Part shown: one piece after another, positions 3,226-55,430 of the stretch
How positions within the stretch are numbered: position 1 is the stretch's first letter
How the letters are laid out: the number at the start of each line of letters is the position of its first letter
Source: Heterobilharzia americana
Lineage: Eukaryota > Platyhelminthes > Trematoda > Strigeidida > Schistosomatidae
DNA: 64,000 nt
Reading direction: 5' to 3'
NCBI GenBank assembly: GCA_944470555.2
Contig: OX104130.1
Span: forward strand, 77,443,160-77,507,159
The notes under the pieces: model-generated
Database searches by the model: none
Told to the model about the DNA's origin: nothing
The model's input: the letters and a program-made list of their open reading frames with translations, nothing else
Position numbers and translations under genes: made by a program

Positions 3226-4126
3226 GTAGAATACAAATTTGTGTCATACGTTAGAAATCCGAACTACGACAACTTTTTTGACATAAAGCGGCCTAGATTA
3301 AAGACAGGTTATACACTTTTGCACTTATCAAGTGCGTTAAACAAGCGTCGATCCATTTTTCAAGCCACTACCGTCTGGAACAACCTTTCAAAATGTGTAG
3401 ATAATTTAAGTCTTATGACACGAGTATTTGGACTTGCTCTTTCTGAACAGTGTCATCAGTTGTCAGTTGAATTAGAAGGAATCAAAGGTCCAATAATTCA
3501 GTCCGCTGGAATCATTCCTGCTGTGGTAAGTTTTGTCTGCATTCCGTTTAATTTCTTGATATCAAGGTTGAGAAGCTAATGAAAATAGTAGATACCTGTG
3601 AGAGACGGCCTGATGACCTACCGCTAAAACGGGGAGAACCACAACTACCTACAGTGTCAGAAGTTCAATCAGTACAGAATGAATTGAGGGTATGTCTATC
3701 TTTGGTTAGTTTTAACAGTTGTTTTAGCGCATCGAGAGTGAATCACATGCAACTGTCTCAAACGTTTTTACAACGGCTGAAGATTTTATCTACAACGGTG
3801 TATTAAATAACTCAGATTGTATGAACCAGGAGACAGAAGCAGTTAAAAACTTATATGCTAAATTCAATGAAGAACGGGAAAAAGAGTATACTGAATGTAC
3901 AAAACAGGAAACGCGAGAGGAGATTATGAAAAGTGCAAAAGAGAAGTTAAGAGAAATTCTAGATGAAGAGGAGCGTATAACATATTTCACAAACCTAACG
4001 AAAATTAATCGGAGTGCATGGTTGGCGCCTCGAACACGTCGAGAATCTCAGTGGTCAAGAATGAAAGAATGGAGGCAGGAAGTTTCTTCTTTTAAACAAC
4101 AGCAAGAGAATAACGAACCTCAGTGA
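3226..4126 (+). CDS. 3' part of an unknown host gene, three exons with micro-introns
   Basis: Three exons join in phase 0. Exon 3226-3525 (100 codons) follows a TTTCTCCAG acceptor and ends at GTAAGT. Exon 3573-3689 (39 codons) follows AAGGTTGAG and ends at GTATGT. Exon 3728-4126 (132 codons plus stop) follows GTTGTTTTAG. The introns are only 47 and 38 bases, a size typical of schistosome micro-introns. The last exon is strongly charged and helix-prone (EEREKEYTECTKQETREE), likely a coiled coil, and ends with a basic/aromatic segment (SAWLAPRTRRESQWSRMKEW). No signal peptide or membrane span is seen. A poly(A) signal follows at 4162. The function is unknown; I do not recognise the family. Confidence 0.7.
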
Positions 4127-13989: not shown

Positions 13990-14190
13990 GTATTGTATTC
14001 ACAATGGAAAGTAGCTAGTAGTGGAATGGAGGACGCGCGTTTCGTCCTATTTGAGACTCGTCAGCTGCATATACCTGCCTTCCAGTAAGCGATGTTGTTC
14101 CCGCTAAGACTAACTTGTAGCTGACCGTTCCAAATCTCAGTGTTATCTACTAGACCAATGACTCACGATAGTCACTTTTGAACTAACAAG
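13990..14190 (-). repeat. tRNA-headed hammerhead SINE (family HH1)
   Basis: The minus strand begins near 14180 with a tRNA-like head (A-box-like TTGGTCTAGTAGATAAC) and ends with a hammerhead domain at 14021-14072. Its layout matches Sm-alpha-type repeats of Schistosoma, known to carry hammerheads. It has no coding capacity. Confidence 0.7.
14021..14072 (-). ncRNA. Hammerhead ribozyme, canonical core (HH1 SINE)
   Basis: The minus strand reads CTGACGA, stem II GTCT/GGAC with loop CAAATA, GAAA, a minimal stem III CGCGCG, then the cleavage triplet position GUC. Stem I (ATGCAG with CTCCAT) pairs at 5 of 6 positions with one C-C mismatch. All invariant core bases of the hammerhead are present. The very short stem III is characteristic of the Schistosoma satellite ribozyme. 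Activity is inferred, not shown. Confidence 0.75.
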
Positions 14191-19329: not shown

Positions 19330-20385
19330 GATGACTGATTTCGCCTGTCATTCTCGCATATTTTTATCAGCGAATCGGTTAGGATAGCCGTTTTGAGCAA
19401 TCCTACCTCTTAAAACCTTCAAAGGCTTCAACTTGCACACGGTTTCTCCTACAAATATTACTTATTCGATAGTAGAGTAAGTGAATGTATATATACGAAT
19501 GTACGCCACAAGAATGAATTCTTCAAAAAGAGTCCTTTTCGCTGAATATATTGCTCGATGTCACAACGGGAATTATTAATTTATATTTACATATGTTGTT
19601 GACTAGAACATTCTTGTCAAACGGAAATCGATAAGAATGACAACAAGAATAATGTAGAATTTCAGAAAGAAATTATGTAAGTAGATTATTCACTGAGCAG
19701 ATGATTCAATAATTAATTAAAAGCCACGATGAATTTAGTTCAGTTATAAATTAAAAAGTTAACTGCTATCCATGGTGATAATAAAATGTGGTGTAATCGA
19801 ATACCAGGATAGTGTATACATGAGTCATTGGAGTAGTGACAGATTAAAGAACATCATACAACAGTTTCAGCATAGTCATGAAAATTAGCACTGCGATATT
19901 TATTCCATAATTTTGGAAGATTTAAGAGCATTTCGATATCCTGTGCCTGTTAAGTGTAAAACAATTCCACTGCTGAAATTGATAGAAACCATTTTTTCCA
20001 AGGCTTCTTGAAAAATGTTATAAAATTTGAGATAGACGTTAGTCTTTGTCCTTCTGGGATATTCCCTTTGATAGATACATGTGGATTCTTACATGCAGTG
20101 ATTACCTTCTACGACTAGTTCACTTGAATGCCATCTTAAAGCTAATTTTTCATCAAGAAAGGTTGTTTTTACAGTCGTATAATGTAGTTCAAAAACTCTA
20201 ATCTTAAACCTGTATTACTAGTCCTATGCCTGAATGCTCCTATGTTACTAGTAAACTCTGAATGTGGATTTACAAGCCGTTTTCGCTTCAGTAAGATATA
20301 AGTATTTAAAAGAATTCGTAGACGTTCTAAGTTACGACTAAACAACAGCTTAACTAAAAGACACTCTGATGTTATTTGTTTGGTT
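19330..20385. other. AT-rich, no gene seen
   Basis: No feature was recognised on either strand. Confidence 0.4.
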
Positions 20386-22335: not shown

Positions 22336-22347
22336 ATCCTTTGATAG
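22336..22347 (+). repeat. Target-site duplication, left copy
   Basis: ATCCTTTGATAG here is repeated exactly at 25682-25693. The left copy abuts the first base of the U6 sequence and the right copy abuts the TAA tail of the LINE, so U6 and LINE entered together. Confidence 0.9.
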
Positions 22348-22445
22348 GTACTCGCTTGGGCGGTACATATACTAAAATTGGAACGATACACAGAAGATTA
22401 GCATGGCCCCTGCGCAGGGATGACACGCAAAATCGTGAAGCGTTC
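22348..22445 (+). pseudogene. U6: U6 snRNA retrocopy fused to a LINE 5' end
   Basis: Ninety-eight bases match eukaryotic U6 snRNA from its first nucleotide: 5' stem-loop GTACTCGCTTGGGCGGTAC, then CATATACTAAAATTGGAACG, AGATTAGCATGGCCCC, GATGACACGCAAA and GTGAAGCGTTC. The ACAGAGA box, which contacts the 5' splice site, reads ACACAGA. The AGC triad is intact. No snRNA promoter lies upstream: the target-site duplication ends exactly at the U6 +1 base. U6 loses its U-tract and runs straight into LINE sequence. It is a processed copy, not a gene. Confidence 0.93.
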
Positions 22446-22694
22446 AACCTCGCCTGGTTAACTAGTTTACTAGTTACTAGCCGGTCCTAAGCCCGGGTAA
22501 AGAGGGAAGGTTGGGCATAGGGCTAGCAACCCTACCCCGTAAAACAAATCTAACCGCTAAAGAAACTTCAAAGCACAAACAAAATATAAAAAATGAAAAC
22601 AAACTTATTCCCCGCTGGAATCGGAGAGGCGAAATGACGCCAGTTGGTGAAAGCCTTCGGGAAGCCAATTGGCCGATGTGTCTTCTCTCTCTCG

Positions 22695-25229
22695 ATGAAA
22701 GCGAAAGTAAACGTGGGGACATGGAATGTCCGCACGATGTTTGAACCCAGTAAGGCAGCCCAGATTGCAAAGGAGATGAGAAGGTATAACATCGAAGTGC
22801 TTGGGATTTGCGAAAGCAGATGGAATGGGAGTGGACTCTCCAAACTGTCAACTGGAGAATCAATAATCTACTCCGGTCACCCAGACGCCAACCACGAGCA
22901 CACTGAGGGAGTGGCTATCATGATGTCCTCAAGAGCATCGAAGGCTCTCATGCAGTGGGAACCAATCTCCTCCAGGATCATGACAGCAAGATTCAACTCA
23001 AAAGGAAGAAAGGTCACAATCATACAATGTTATGCACCTACAAATAATGCAGAGCAAGAGAAAAAGGAGGATTTCTACAGACAACTTCAATCAACACTGG
23101 ACAAGACGTCAGTTGGCGATATCAAAATTCTAATGGGCGACATGAATGCCAAACTGGGAGGGGACAACACGGGAAGAGAACTAACCATGGGTCGAGAGGC
23201 GCTAGGTGAAATGAATGAGAATGGAGAATTGTTTGCAGAATTCTGTGCATTCAACGATTTGGTGATTGGAGGCAGTGTGTTCAGGCACAAAGATATCCAC
23301 AAAGCGACATGGACTTCACCAGATGGACACACTAAAAATCAAATCGACTTTATCTCAATCTCAAGAAAATGGAGACGCAGTCTACTTAACACAAGGTCAA
23401 GAAGAGGAGCAGATGTAGGTTCAGACCACTATCTAGTGCAAGGAACCTTCCAAATCAAGTTAAAAGCCTTCAAGGAAGCTGGTGATAGACCTCAATTCAA
23501 GTACAACACTCGGAAACTGAAGGATGAAACTACAAAGGAGATCTTCAAAGCAGCCATCAAGACAAAATGGGAGACATCGAGGGACATCCCTGAAGAAACC
23601 TGTGTGGAAGAACACTGGAAGTCTTTGAAAGCTATGTGGAAAGAAACCTGCACAACAGTATTAGGAAGGAAGAAGAAAGAAGACAAGGAATGGATCTCGA
23701 CGGATACCTGGAAGCTGATAGAGGAGAGGAGGATGGTGAAGCAGAAGATAAACCAGTGCAAGGATGCTCAACGACAAGAGGAACTGAGCACAATGTATAA
23801 AACACTGGACAAAGAAGTGAAGAAGAGTGCACGCAAAGACAAAAGACACTTCTACGAAACACTGGCAAGTGAAGCAGAACAGGCTGCAGGTAAGAGAGAC
23901 CTGACGACATTGTATCAAATAACCAGGTTGCTATCAGGGAAGAGACCAACACAGATGAAACCAATAAAAGATGAAGAAGGAAATTTAATTACGAAAGAAG
24001 AGAAACAGAGGAAACGATGGGCCGACCACTTCAAGAAGCTCTTGAATCGACCACCACCACCACCTGCACTTCGTCCAGAAATACCACCTGCAGCCGCTGA
24101 ATTACAAGTGAACATTAATCCCCCAACGAAAATGGAAGTCCTGAACGCCATAAAGCTACTGAAATGCGGGAAAGCAGCAGGACCAGATGGAATACCGCCA
24201 GAAGCACTGAGAACAGATGCAGAGACAACAGCGGACATGCTCACACCACTATTGCAGAAGGTGTGGAAGGAAGAGAAGGTACCTGACGATTGGAAGAAGG
24301 GTTACCTTGTCAAACTGCCGAAGAAGGGAGACCTCAGTGCTTGCAAGAACTGGCGCGGAATCACTCTCCTGTCCACCCCAAGTAAAATATTAAGCCGCAT
24401 CATCCTGGAGAGGCTTAAAGATGCACTGGATTCAAAACTGCGACCGGAACAGGCAGGCTTCAGGAAGTACAAATCATGTGCAGACCAAATTGCAACGCTT
24501 CGCATCATCATAGAACAGAGCATAGAATGGCAATCAGCTCTCTACCTCAACTTCATCGACTTTGAGAAGGCCTTTGACAGCGTCGACCGAGAAGTAATTT
24601 GGAAACTGCTTCAATACTACGGAGTACCGCAAACCTTTATCCGCCTCATTCAACAACTATATGAAGATGCCACATGCCAAGTAATTCACAATGGGAAGCT
24701 CAGTGATGCCTTTGAAGTGAAGACAGGAGTGAAACAAGGTTGCCTACTATCCCCCATGATATTCCTTATTGTGGTGGACTGGATCATGCAGCAAACAGTA
24801 GGCAGCGAGAAGAGGGGGATACACTGGACGACGGAAAAGAACCTAGAAGACTTGGATTTCGCCGATGACTTGTGCCTAATGTCACATAAACTTGAAGATC
24901 TGCAGGCAAAAACTAACAAGTTGACAGAAGAGGCAGCGAAGACGGGACTTCAGGTGAATATAGAGAAGACAGAAGTGATGAAGATACCACACCACCACCA
25001 TCAACAACAACAACAAACTCCAATCACCGTCAACGGGAGAAACTTGAAGGAAGTAACCTCCTTCACTTATCTAGGAAGCACTGTTTCAACTACAGGCGGG
25101 ACGGACGAGGACGTCAAAGTCAGAATCGGAAAAGCAAGACAGGCGTTCATTAGCCTGAAACCAGTGTGGAGATCTTCTGCACTCAGCATGCGGAACAAGA
25201 TACGGATTTTCAACACCAACGTCAAGTAA
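22695..25229 (+). CDS. LINE ORF2: endonuclease-reverse transcriptase, C-terminus cut by a frameshift
   Basis: This is the first ATG before the domain, giving 844 residues. An N-terminal APE-type endonuclease shows GTWNVRTM (Asn11), GICESRWNG (Glu40), CYAPT, GDMNAKLGG, NQIDFI and SDH at about 243-245, so all expected catalytic residues are present. The RT follows with NWRGITLLSTPSKILSR, FIDFEKAFDSVDREVIW, GVKQGCLLSPMIF and DLDFADDLCLM (Asp724-Asp725). A His/Gln run (HHHHQQQQQ) lies after the RT. The frame ends at a TAA created by a 4-base duplication (AAGTAAGT) at about 25226. Role: nicking of target DNA and target-primed reverse transcription. It was probably active recently. Confidence 0.93.
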   Translation: MKAKVNVGTWNVRTMFEPSKAAQIAKEMRRYNIEVLGICESRWNGSGLSKLSTGESIIYSGHPDANHEHTEGVAIMMSSRASKALMQWEPISSRIMTARFNSKGRKVTIIQCYAPTNNAEQEKKEDFYRQLQSTLDKTSVGDIKILMGDMNAKLGGDNTGRELTMGREALGEMNENGELFAEFCAFNDLVIGGSVFRHKDIHKATWTSPDGHTKNQIDFISISRKWRRSLLNTRSRRGADVGSDHYLVQGTFQIKLKAFKEAGDRPQFKYNTRKLKDETTKEIFKAAIKTKWETSRDIPEETCVEEHWKSLKAMWKETCTTVLGRKKKEDKEWISTDTWKLIEERRMVKQKINQCKDAQRQEELSTMYKTLDKEVKKSARKDKRHFYETLASEAEQAAGKRDLTTLYQITRLLSGKRPTQMKPIKDEEGNLITKEEKQRKRWADHFKKLLNRPPPPPALRPEIPPAAAELQVNINPPTKMEVLNAIKLLKCGKAAGPDGIPPEALRTDAETTADMLTPLLQKVWKEEKVPDDWKKGYLVKLPKKGDLSACKNWRGITLLSTPSKILSRIILERLKDALDSKLRPEQAGFRKYKSCADQIATLRIIIEQSIEWQSALYLNFIDFEKAFDSVDREVIWKLLQYYGVPQTFIRLIQQLYEDATCQVIHNGKLSDAFEVKTGVKQGCLLSPMIFLIVVDWIMQQTVGSEKRGIHWTTEKNLEDLDFADDLCLMSHKLEDLQAKTNKLTEEAAKTGLQVNIEKTEVMKIPHHHHQQQQQTPITVNGRNLKEVTSFTYLGSTVSTTGGTDEDVKVRIGKARQAFISLKPVWRSSALSMRNKIRIFNTNVK

Positions 25230-25667
25230 GTCAGTGTTTCTGTATGGCTCAGAGACTTGGCGCGTCACGAAAGGCATTTCCAATAAACTACAGACATTCA
25301 TCAACAACTGCTTACGCTGCTCGCTACTGAAGATCAGATGGCCAGAAAAAATAAGCAACAAGGAACTCTGGGAACGAACCAACCAAGAACCTATCACGCA
25401 ACAAATATGCAGGAAGAAGTGGAGATGGATTGGCCATGCACTGAGAAGGCCGACTGAGGACATCACGCGTCAGGCCAGGCCCTCGAGTGGAATCCCCAGG
25501 GGAAGCGACGAGTTGGACGTCCGAGGGTGACATGGAGGAGGTCGTGCGAGGAGGAAATGAGAGCTTCTGGGCTGTCGTGGAACCAGGTTCAAAAGATCTC
25601 AGAGAACAGAGGTCACTGGAGGCGTGCTACTGAAGCCCTATGTTCCACTAGGAACCCAAGGGACTAA
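25230..25667 (+). pseudogene. Displaced C-terminus of the LINE ORF2
   Basis: After the 4-base duplication the tail continues in another frame from 25234 (LYGSETWRVTK, then RKKWRWIGHALRRPTEDIT). A second shift of 5 bases near 25470-25480 returns to the original frame (from CTCGAGTGG at 25482), reading RRVGRPRVTWRRSCEEEMR and ending at ALCSTRNPRD. Its stop codon is the first TAA of the tail (25665-25667). The two shifts sum to 9 bases. This region is the zinc-knuckle-free RTE C-terminal tail. Confidence 0.8.
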
Positions 25668-25681
25668 TAATAATAATAATA

Positions 25682-25693
25682 ATCCTTTGATAG
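25682..25693 (+). repeat. Target-site duplication, right copy
   Basis: ATCCTTTGATAG matches 22336-22347. The first two bases could also belong to the TAA tail, so the duplication is 10-12 bases. Confidence 0.9.
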
Positions 25694-29914: not shown

Positions 29915-30150
29915 TATTCATCGTAGACTGACATCAGTTGGAGGAATAAAGGAAACCTGGAAGCACTGGACAGCTGTCTCGTTCTAGCATGGGACTCCTC
30001 AGCAGTGCGTTCCCACGACCCCGCCAGGGATCGAACCCGTGACCTCCAGGTTCCGTGACTAGCACATTACCATTGAGCCAGTGGATAAGTATCCAATCGT
30101 CCATATTTCCAACTTCTGTTATCTCACGATATAACGCAACCGCCACCCAA
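29915..30150 (-). repeat. Hammerhead SINE (HH2), left arm of a palindrome
   Basis: The minus-strand element has a head ending near 30150, a tRNA-like block (A-box-like TGGCTCAATGGTAATG and B-box GGTTCGATCCC at 30025-30080), a hammerhead at 29963-30008 and an end CAACTGATGTCAGTC. It mirrors 30150-30370. Confidence 0.85.
29963..30008 (-). ncRNA. Hammerhead motif with altered core (HH2)
   Basis: The minus strand reads GCACTG, CTGAGGA, stem II, GAGA, minimal stem III and CTGTC, then CAGTGC. Stem I pairs perfectly (GCACTG/CAGTGC). The invariant GAAA is GAGA and stem II has one mismatch, so activity is doubtful. Confidence 0.65.
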
Positions 30151-30370
30151 TGTCATCGTGAACTGACAGAAGTTGGAAATTTAGACAACTGGATTCTAAC
30201 CCACTGGCTCAATGATAATGTGCTAGTCACGGGACCTGAAGGTCACGGGTTCAATCCCTGGCCGGGTCGTGGGAACGCACTGCTGAGGAGTCCCATGCTA
30301 GGACGAGACAGTTGTCCAGTGCTTCCAGGTTTCTTTTGTTCCTCCAACTGATATCAGTCTACGACGAATG
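30150..30370 (+). repeat. Hammerhead SINE (HH2), right arm of a palindrome
   Basis: The plus-strand element has the head CATCGTGAACTGACAGAAG, a tRNA-like block with A-box-like TGGCTCAATGATAATG and B-box GGTTCAATCCC (30203-30260), a hammerhead at 30277-30322 and the end CAACTGATATCAGTC. It is head-to-head with the left arm; the two are near-identical reverse complements over about 215 bases. Confidence 0.85.
30277..30322 (+). ncRNA. Hammerhead motif with altered core (HH2)
   Basis: It reads GCACTG, CTGAGGA, stem II GTCC/GGAC with loop CATGCTA, GAGA, CAGTTG, TC, CAGTGC. Stems I and II are perfect, but GAAA is GAGA, which should impair cleavage. Confidence 0.65.
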
Positions 30371-55204: not shown

Positions 55205-55430
55205 TCATCATGAACTGACATCAGTTGGATGATCATTGGAAACCTGGGAGCACTGGACAGCTGTTTCGCCCTAATATAGGACTCCTCAGCAGTGCGCACT
55301 CACGACCCCGCCAGGCCTCGAGCCGAGAACCTTGGGGTTACGTGGCTAGGAAGTTACCATTGAGCCACTGGGTCGGAACCCAATGGTCCACAATATAGCG
55401 CGACCCCCATCCAATGTCGTCGCTGAGTGA
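55205..55430 (-). repeat. Hammerhead SINE (HH2), left arm of a second palindrome
   Basis: The minus-strand head lies near 55430, the tRNA-like block (A-box TGGCTCAATGGTAAC, B-box GGCTCGAGGCC) at 55315-55370, a hammerhead at 55250-55295 and the end CAACTGATGTCAGTTC. It is head-to-head with 55440-55690. Confidence 0.85.
55250..55295 (-). ncRNA. Hammerhead ribozyme with canonical core (HH2)
   Basis: The minus strand reads GCACTG (stem I), CTGAGGA, GTCCT/AGGGC stem II (one G-U pair) with loop ATATT, GAAA, minimal stem III CAGCTG, TC, then CAGTGC closing stem I with six perfect pairs. Every invariant core position is canonical. Predicted cleavage follows the GUC. It is the best-preserved HH2 ribozyme in the window. 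Confidence 0.8.

Follow-up and report, generated by a model that had tools for sequence, protein, structure and literature searches.

A copy of the U6 small nuclear RNA (snRNA) joined to the 5' end of a near-full-length long interspersed nuclear element (LINE) was analyzed in a stretch of 64,000 nucleotides (nt) of the 665-Mb Heterobilharzia americana assembly (the window; positions 77443160-77507159 on assembly sequence C4, G000:C4). Both parts lie within one target-site duplication (TSD) of 12 bp and are one joint insertion. Far from being an isolated oddity, the joining of U6 to this LINE recurs at a fixed LINE position, with about thirty distinct captures found overall. For the window copy, the probable explanation is a single target-primed insertion, in which the reverse transcriptase would have jumped onto U6 RNA from a LINE end set by a ribozyme. 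The following features, all on the plus strand, were assigned:

22336-22347, +, left TSD copy ATCCTTTGATAG, read from the sequence, chance estimated with random spans
22348-22445, +, U6 snRNA copy, nt 1-98 of U6 (Rfam RF00026, 89.3 bits)
22446-22514, +, twister-P1-like ribozyme match (Rfam match 22441-22514; 45.9 bits, gathering 67.2, E 2.5e-9)
22446-25681, +, near-full-length endonuclease-reverse transcriptase (EN-RT) LINE, RTE-like, 3.2 kb (alignment of copies; Pfam RVT_1, Exo_endo_phos)
22624-22689, +, SECIS_1-like hairpin in the LINE 5' region (34.2 bits, cut-off 35)
22644-25229, +, main open frame with endonuclease and reverse transcriptase domains (open frames, Pfam)
25665-25681, +, LINE (TAA)n tail, read from the sequence
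25682-25693, +, right TSD copy ATCCTTTGATAG, read from the sequence, chance estimated with random spans

Across 22336-25693 the order of parts is TSD, U6 nt 1-98, LINE nt 1 through the (TAA)n tail, and TSD. U6 and LINE have the same orientation with zero bases between them. The left TSD copy adjoins U6 +1, the right copy directly follows the tail (whose final AT can be assigned either to the tail or to the TSD), and the two copies are identical in 12/12 positions. Among 20,000 random spans of equal size, a 12-bp match was obtained in none and a 10-bp match at a frequency of 5e-5. A third TSD-like string at 20065 lacks extended likeness to the flanks and was taken as chance. The U6 match (E 1.6e-21) begins at 22348, and its end was judged by eye at 22445 (...GCGTTC); the last 9 model positions fall on LINE letters. 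The original prediction that U6 is joined to the LINE 5' end within one 12-base TSD is thus borne out.

Copies of the LINE were collected by BLAST. Forty of 8752 candidates were scored, and 27 of the 39 rows outside the window were fetched (L002-L028), chosen mostly for the LINE 5' start; of the 12 unfetched rows, seven start inside the LINE and five at about nt 1. All 27 fetched near-full copies align from LINE nt 1 or 2, which sets the LINE start at 22446 (AACCTCGCC). Apparent copy ends at nt 2179 were recognized as a BLAST cut, 16 such copies aligning to nt 3227-3236. Of the 28 copies, the window copy among them, 18 have an exact duplication of 8-15 bp that ends at LINE nt 1. Among the other ten, U6 is carried by L001 (98 nt) and L015 (TSD 8 bp), while L018 has a tRNA-Val-like 3' part and GGCTTTT before the LINE (TSD 8 bp), L009 a 5.8S rRNA (confirmed by Rfam) with flanking spacer-like sequence and an unclear TSD, and L016 three extra nt; in L011, L019, L020, L021 and L025 the 5' side is unclear, with AT repeats or an N flank. 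U6 is missing from 26 of the 27 copies, a set possibly biased toward U6 by the BLAST query, which contained it. A U6 head fixed in the LINE 5' untranslated region was named beforehand as the refuting case; it was looked for in these copies and in 40 exact LINE 5' ends (the first 40 of 4047) and is ruled out, since neither the U6 string CGTGAAGCG nor N was found within 150 nt of any of the 40.

The check proposed with the original prediction, a search of the genome for further U6-LINE junctions, gave a positive result. Among 48 U6 loci scored out of 56,872 first-look candidates, 27 lead straight into the 5' part of a LINE of this family, 26 of them by alignment score and L049 with a short LINE piece; L064 and L065 are duplicates, leaving 26 distinct loci. 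Four further joints (L015, L098, L101 and L105) were found outside this set. All these figures are minimum values, and the survey possibly missed pristine U6 genes. The LINE is joined at nt 1-4 (alignment start) in 24 of the 26 distinct loci, the exceptions being L054 (nt 13) and L067 (nt 12), and U6 is kept to consensus nt 100 or beyond in 24 of 26, the window copy and L067 stopping at 98. At least four T precede the LINE in 22 of 26. Between U-run and LINE, L029 has an extra AA and L034 an extra AT, which look like untemplated additions. With 300 or 1500 nt downstream compared (E ≤1e-10), no U6 was found to run directly into LINE positions farther in; L051 arrives at LINE nt ~2509 via a short interspersed nuclear element (SINE).

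The remaining 21 U6 loci were grouped by eye into five followed by a SINE, four composite-repeat, four inverted-repeat, one palindrome and seven other loci. The SINE has a tRNA-like head, and three of the five SINE-followed loci are distinct, as L038-L040 look like one duplicated locus. A hammerhead was detected by Rfam in L031 and L051, where it lies within this SINE, and a hammerhead-like structure was seen by eye in L038. L048, L055, L062 and L076 are U6 copies with a similar 3' neighbor (ATTGTCCCA.TCATGCATCCATTCAG), three of which share a U6 change; they probably belong to one repeat family headed by U6. In L046, L053, L070 and L072, U6 fragments lie inside an inverted-repeat element ending ...TTAAACAACCCAGCTCAGAGAACAC, and L043 is a head-to-head U6 palindrome as judged by eye.

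The U6 parts of the 26 loci carry 213 substitutions in total, 122 of them distinct, and any pair of loci has at most four in common. Since these mutations are star-like, the U6-LINE joins look like independent events from their sequences. The divergence of U6 and that of the LINE 5' region are correlated (Spearman rho 0.68, n=24; without the short L049 and L067). By eye, the final 25 nt before the chimeras are dissimilar except in duplicates, which shows that the chimeras do not represent U6 genes adjoining a LINE; a LINE that landed next to a U6 gene is ruled out by these upstream sequences together with the TSD chance test. A joint TSD was then looked for at the 19 of 30 distinct joints with a reachable LINE 3' end (window included), the end being unreachable in 11 (L029, L030, L034, L036, L054, L056, L063, L064, L067, L069 and L073). 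An exact TSD of 8 to 21 nt encloses U6 and LINE in eight of the 19 (window, L015, L032, L035, L037, L044, L045 and L101), and an imperfect one was recognized by eye in five (L033, L042, L047, L049 and L057). In L035, L037 and L045 the duplication extends a few bases into U6, as if these bases were common to U6 and target. An 8-mer common to the L066 flanks lies away from the joint and was excluded as a TSD.

The fixed LINE start coincides with a candidate ribozyme. At the Rfam gathering threshold no twister is listed in the window, but a permissive Rfam scan returned twister-P1 (RF03160) at 22441-22514, and further matches of 32.8-53.7 bits were obtained in 12 of 17 other loci. Because the window score is below the RF03160 gathering score, the structure is named twister-like. 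In 12 of 13 hits (window included; L031 differs) the first matched base lies exactly 5 nt upstream of LINE +1. The predicted cleavage point lies immediately before the first LINE nucleotide (22446), between model positions 5 and 6, which are the U and A of the twister core. The conserved core is recognizable in the window alignment, with the cut placed before the conserved A; position -1 holds C in place of U, and the P1 stem is not formed. Twister cleaves at a U-A step whose U shows weak conservation, and it can do without the P1 stem (PMC5408937). Truncated competent twisters at RTE 5' ends have been announced as 'in preparation' (PMC7761336). Most simply, LINE +1 would be the product of a ribozyme and bear a 5'-OH, and the twister-like ribozyme is presumably active.

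Exact TTTTT-LINE joints, a set not chosen for U6, were also collected. There are 35, of which four are U6 chimeras already described (L030, L032, L035 and L036), one is L011 and 30 were fetched; with up to two mismatches, 1148 places are found, which is not a chimera count. The fetched joints comprise three more U6 copies, one tRNA-Val-like piece and three of one structured U-ended RNA, so that U6 is the commonest identified partner (7/35). Rfam, run on 20 of the 30 (without L098, L101, L104, L105 and L118-L123), names no partner RNA; in L106 it detects a hammerhead about 90 nt upstream of the LINE. The tRNA-Val-like 3' piece occurs in two insertions, L018 and L108, and is followed there by a GGC trailer and a U-run. 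The U-ended RNA of ~142 nt is likewise present in two distinct insertions, L103 (G000:C2:4979839-4980045), where an 11-bp TSD bounds the RNA, and L097; L104 duplicates L103. It contains a T-run and strings resembling A and B boxes, its ends (GTCGGG...CCCGAC) are complementary, and no Rfam match was obtained for it at E up to 1. Its A-box-like string resembles that of vault RNA, and the molecule is perhaps a vault-like pol III RNA of flukes. A TSD was looked for and not found in L097, L098, L105 and L108. The partner in L009 is a piece of pre-rRNA that seems to end inside internal transcribed spacer 2 (ITS2). Neighboring chains of U6, SINE and LINE were observed in L031 and L038, and of U6, SINE and truncated LINE in L051.

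Taken together, these joints are best read as end-to-end jumping by the LINE reverse transcriptase onto nuclear RNAs that end in U, among which U6 is the commonest identified. The 5' end of the LINE RNA would be set at LINE +1, probably by the 5' twister-like ribozyme. During target-primed insertion the reverse transcriptase would copy this RNA to its physical end, jump to the 3' region of U6 RNA and copy it to U6 +1, and the joint cDNA would be integrated once, in the window with duplication of 12 bp of target. Template jumping of this kind accounts for both the fixed LINE end and the RNAs with unprocessed U-runs; if L031, L038 and L051 are each a single insertion, their chains would call for several switches in a row. 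As the ribozyme would trim U6 off later transcripts, the U6 part of a chimera is not expected to be passed on, in keeping with the star-like U6 mutations. The R2 reverse transcriptase jumps between templates in vitro, best with an overhang of 1-2 nt complementary to the acceptor (PMC8857657), and in vivo R2 has jumped to snU12 and tRNA from the end that its own ribozyme produces (PMC3414825). Template switching, as originally predicted, stands as the best-supported mechanism, while the view of a single odd event had to be revised to a recurrent one, with prior RNA ligation as a rival.

Several observations weigh against this interpretation. Joining to U6 affects a minority of LINE insertions, as none of the 40 sampled 5' ends carries U6, and 23 of the 30 fetched TTTTT-LINE joints have no identified partner; these 23 may be T-rich target DNA. 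No joint TSD was found in six of the 19 tested joints (L041, L050, L058, L066, L098 and L105). The twister match is missing in five of the 17 further loci (L037, L038, L042, L044 and L051), and in the window its score is below the gathering score. The window copy is itself an exception among the chimeras, as its U6 lacks the last ~9 nt and the U-run; it stops at nt 98, which means that the mature 3' end was not where the jump landed. Finally, the window U6 differs in 3/98 positions from a U6 reference read off this genome's own loci and the LINE has 13/3214 private positions, a lower bound on LINE change, so that U6 divergence exceeds the expectation for equal ageing (P about 0.008, Poisson estimate). 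The source U6 may have been a variant, or reverse transcription may have erred at modified bases. One change in the window U6 lies inside the ACAGAGA box (nt 44).

Since the recurrent joining position is also the twister-like cleavage point, RNA ligation before insertion stays alive as an explanation. An RtcB-type ligase would join the LINE 5'-OH to an RNA with a 2',3'-cyclic phosphate, and the chimera would then be reverse transcribed whole. U6 and ITS2 ends carry such a cyclic phosphate. The joints sit at the predicted 5'-OH end, U6 leads among the identified partners, and L009, which seems to end within ITS2, is perhaps cut pre-rRNA. On joint position and U6 share, ligation thus performs equally well as jumping. 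It does less well on the tRNA-Val-like partner, whose unprocessed U-run is expected to end in 3'-OH, and on the U6-SINE-LINE chains, which need two ligations if each is one insertion; furthermore, the window U6 lacks its own 3' end. For U6/LINE-1 chimeras, RNA ligation and template switching are both left open (PMC13174262). Overall we consider ligation unlikely here, and joining during reverse transcription rather than by ligation is inferred. An idea that spans both routes, slightly less doubtful and still tentative, is that the ribozyme's role would go beyond trimming: the 5'-OH at LINE +1 would serve as a docking point at which nuclear RNAs with a cyclic phosphate or oligo-U end, chiefly U6, are joined, by ligation or by favored end-to-end jumping.

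Two explanations without a joining of RNAs fare worse. In a 5' transduction, a U6 gene or pseudogene with a LINE inserted at its nt 98 would be transcribed from U6 +1 through both parts, and the transcript would be retrotransposed. This would suit a window copy that lacks the U6 terminator, has a U6 part looking older than its LINE and contains just one run of four T on the LINE sense strand. However, the T-run between U6 and LINE in 22 of the 26 distinct chimeras should stop pol III, the ribozyme, if active, would cut the readthrough transcript, and no source locus was recognized among the 48 U6 loci, in a survey that did not search for promoters and possibly missed near-perfect U6; transduction is quite improbable, with the window copy alone leaving it some room. 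That a LINE was inserted beside a pre-existing U6 copy in a separate event, the TSD being coincidental, is more improbable still, as nothing was found in its favor and given the absence of 12-bp matches in random spans, the direct contact of U6 and LINE and the many joins at the same LINE base.

The LINE shows features of the RTE clade, namely a single EN-RT open reading frame, a length of about 3.2 kb, a short 5' region and a simple-repeat tail, and is classified as RTE-like from its sequence; none of the 120 homologous proteins listed is labeled RTE. In the window copy the frame is broken, the C-terminal remainder lying in another frame (25234-25530). Among the matches listed, its protein is nearest to Trichobilharzia regenti proteins (76% over 98% and 80% over 81% of the query), as fits a schistosomatid fluke. 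Relatives among the 120 include a loach (Paramisgurnus) protein at 65% and several marine snail proteins at 51-60%, which suggests patchy distribution, horizontal transfer or contamination. The SECIS_1-like hairpin scores equally in six of 17 further loci scanned and is probably a chance likeness of a LINE hairpin. In L035, L041 and L049 the LINE 5' region is fused to the 3' part at nt ~2397-2424 by internal deletion, resembling the short internally deleted elements (SIDEs) of R2. L140 (G000:C1:2628908-2629079) has an antisense LINE 5' end before a LINE 5' end, head-to-head. Type I hammerheads above the Rfam cut-off are present elsewhere in the window at 14026-14070 (-), 29963-30008 (-), 30277-30322 (+) and 55250-55295 (-).

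Known U6/L1 and U6/other-LINE chimeras likewise have sense U6 upstream of the LINE, a common TSD and an origin ascribed to template switching (PMC4476161). In those chimeras the LINE is usually 5'-truncated, as opposed to a join at the first LINE nucleotides in 24 of 26 distinct loci here; moreover, no U6/L1 case with an internal 3' start on U6 was seen, while the window U6 ends 9 nt short. The original prediction held that no RTE-type or flatworm case is known. Its RTE part does not stand, as three U6-RTEX-2 chimeras of Anolis are printed in the same paper; its flatworm part does, since no flatworm U6-LINE chimera was found in a term search, with other literature judged by title. As far as the literature searched shows, this is the first flatworm U6-LINE case, and a recurrent one. 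For Schistosoma mansoni, Copeland et al. (2009; PMC2770079) reported 55 U6 sequences, with no LINE link stated in the portion available.

Drosophila R2 likewise has a ribozyme-made 5' end to which small RNA is joined, by an inferred jump, as well as internally deleted derivatives (PMC3414825). Its ribozyme is hepatitis delta virus (HDV)-like, the element is specific to ribosomal DNA and three jumps (one called potential) are described, whereas here the ribozyme is twister-like, the element is dispersed and RTE-like, and about 30 distinct U6 loci are involved. The report on RTE twisters also places a truncated twister at the 5' end and proposes a role in 5' processing; captured RNAs are unmentioned in the text consulted, whereas joined RNAs are present here (PMC7761336). 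The Schistosoma RTE elements SR3/Perere-3 share a length of about 3.2 kb and one EN-RT frame, and SR3 has TSDs of 10-12 bp and a (TAAG)n tail as opposed to (TAA)n here (PMC1291365, PMC13155389); the window LINE protein has only 51% identity to two Schistosoma proteins listed, which may not be SR3. Several RNA types on one LINE family are also known from LINE-1 chimeras with tRNA, 28S, 7SL, Y and 7SK RNA (PMC13174262), in which the element is mammalian L1 and tRNA parts are mostly antisense, while they are sense in the two cases found here.

About thirty U6 captures, nearly all at one seemingly ribozyme-defined base, amount to a natural experiment that bears on ligation versus template jumping and on how RTE elements gain small-RNA heads. 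The joints at LINE +1 also expose a U-ended RNA unnamed by Rfam. If the docking idea is true, a ribozyme-bearing LINE would systematically sample cellular RNAs as 5' heads and seed SINE-like elements. The repeated capture of U6, and sometimes of other small RNAs, shows how such elements can gain new front ends.

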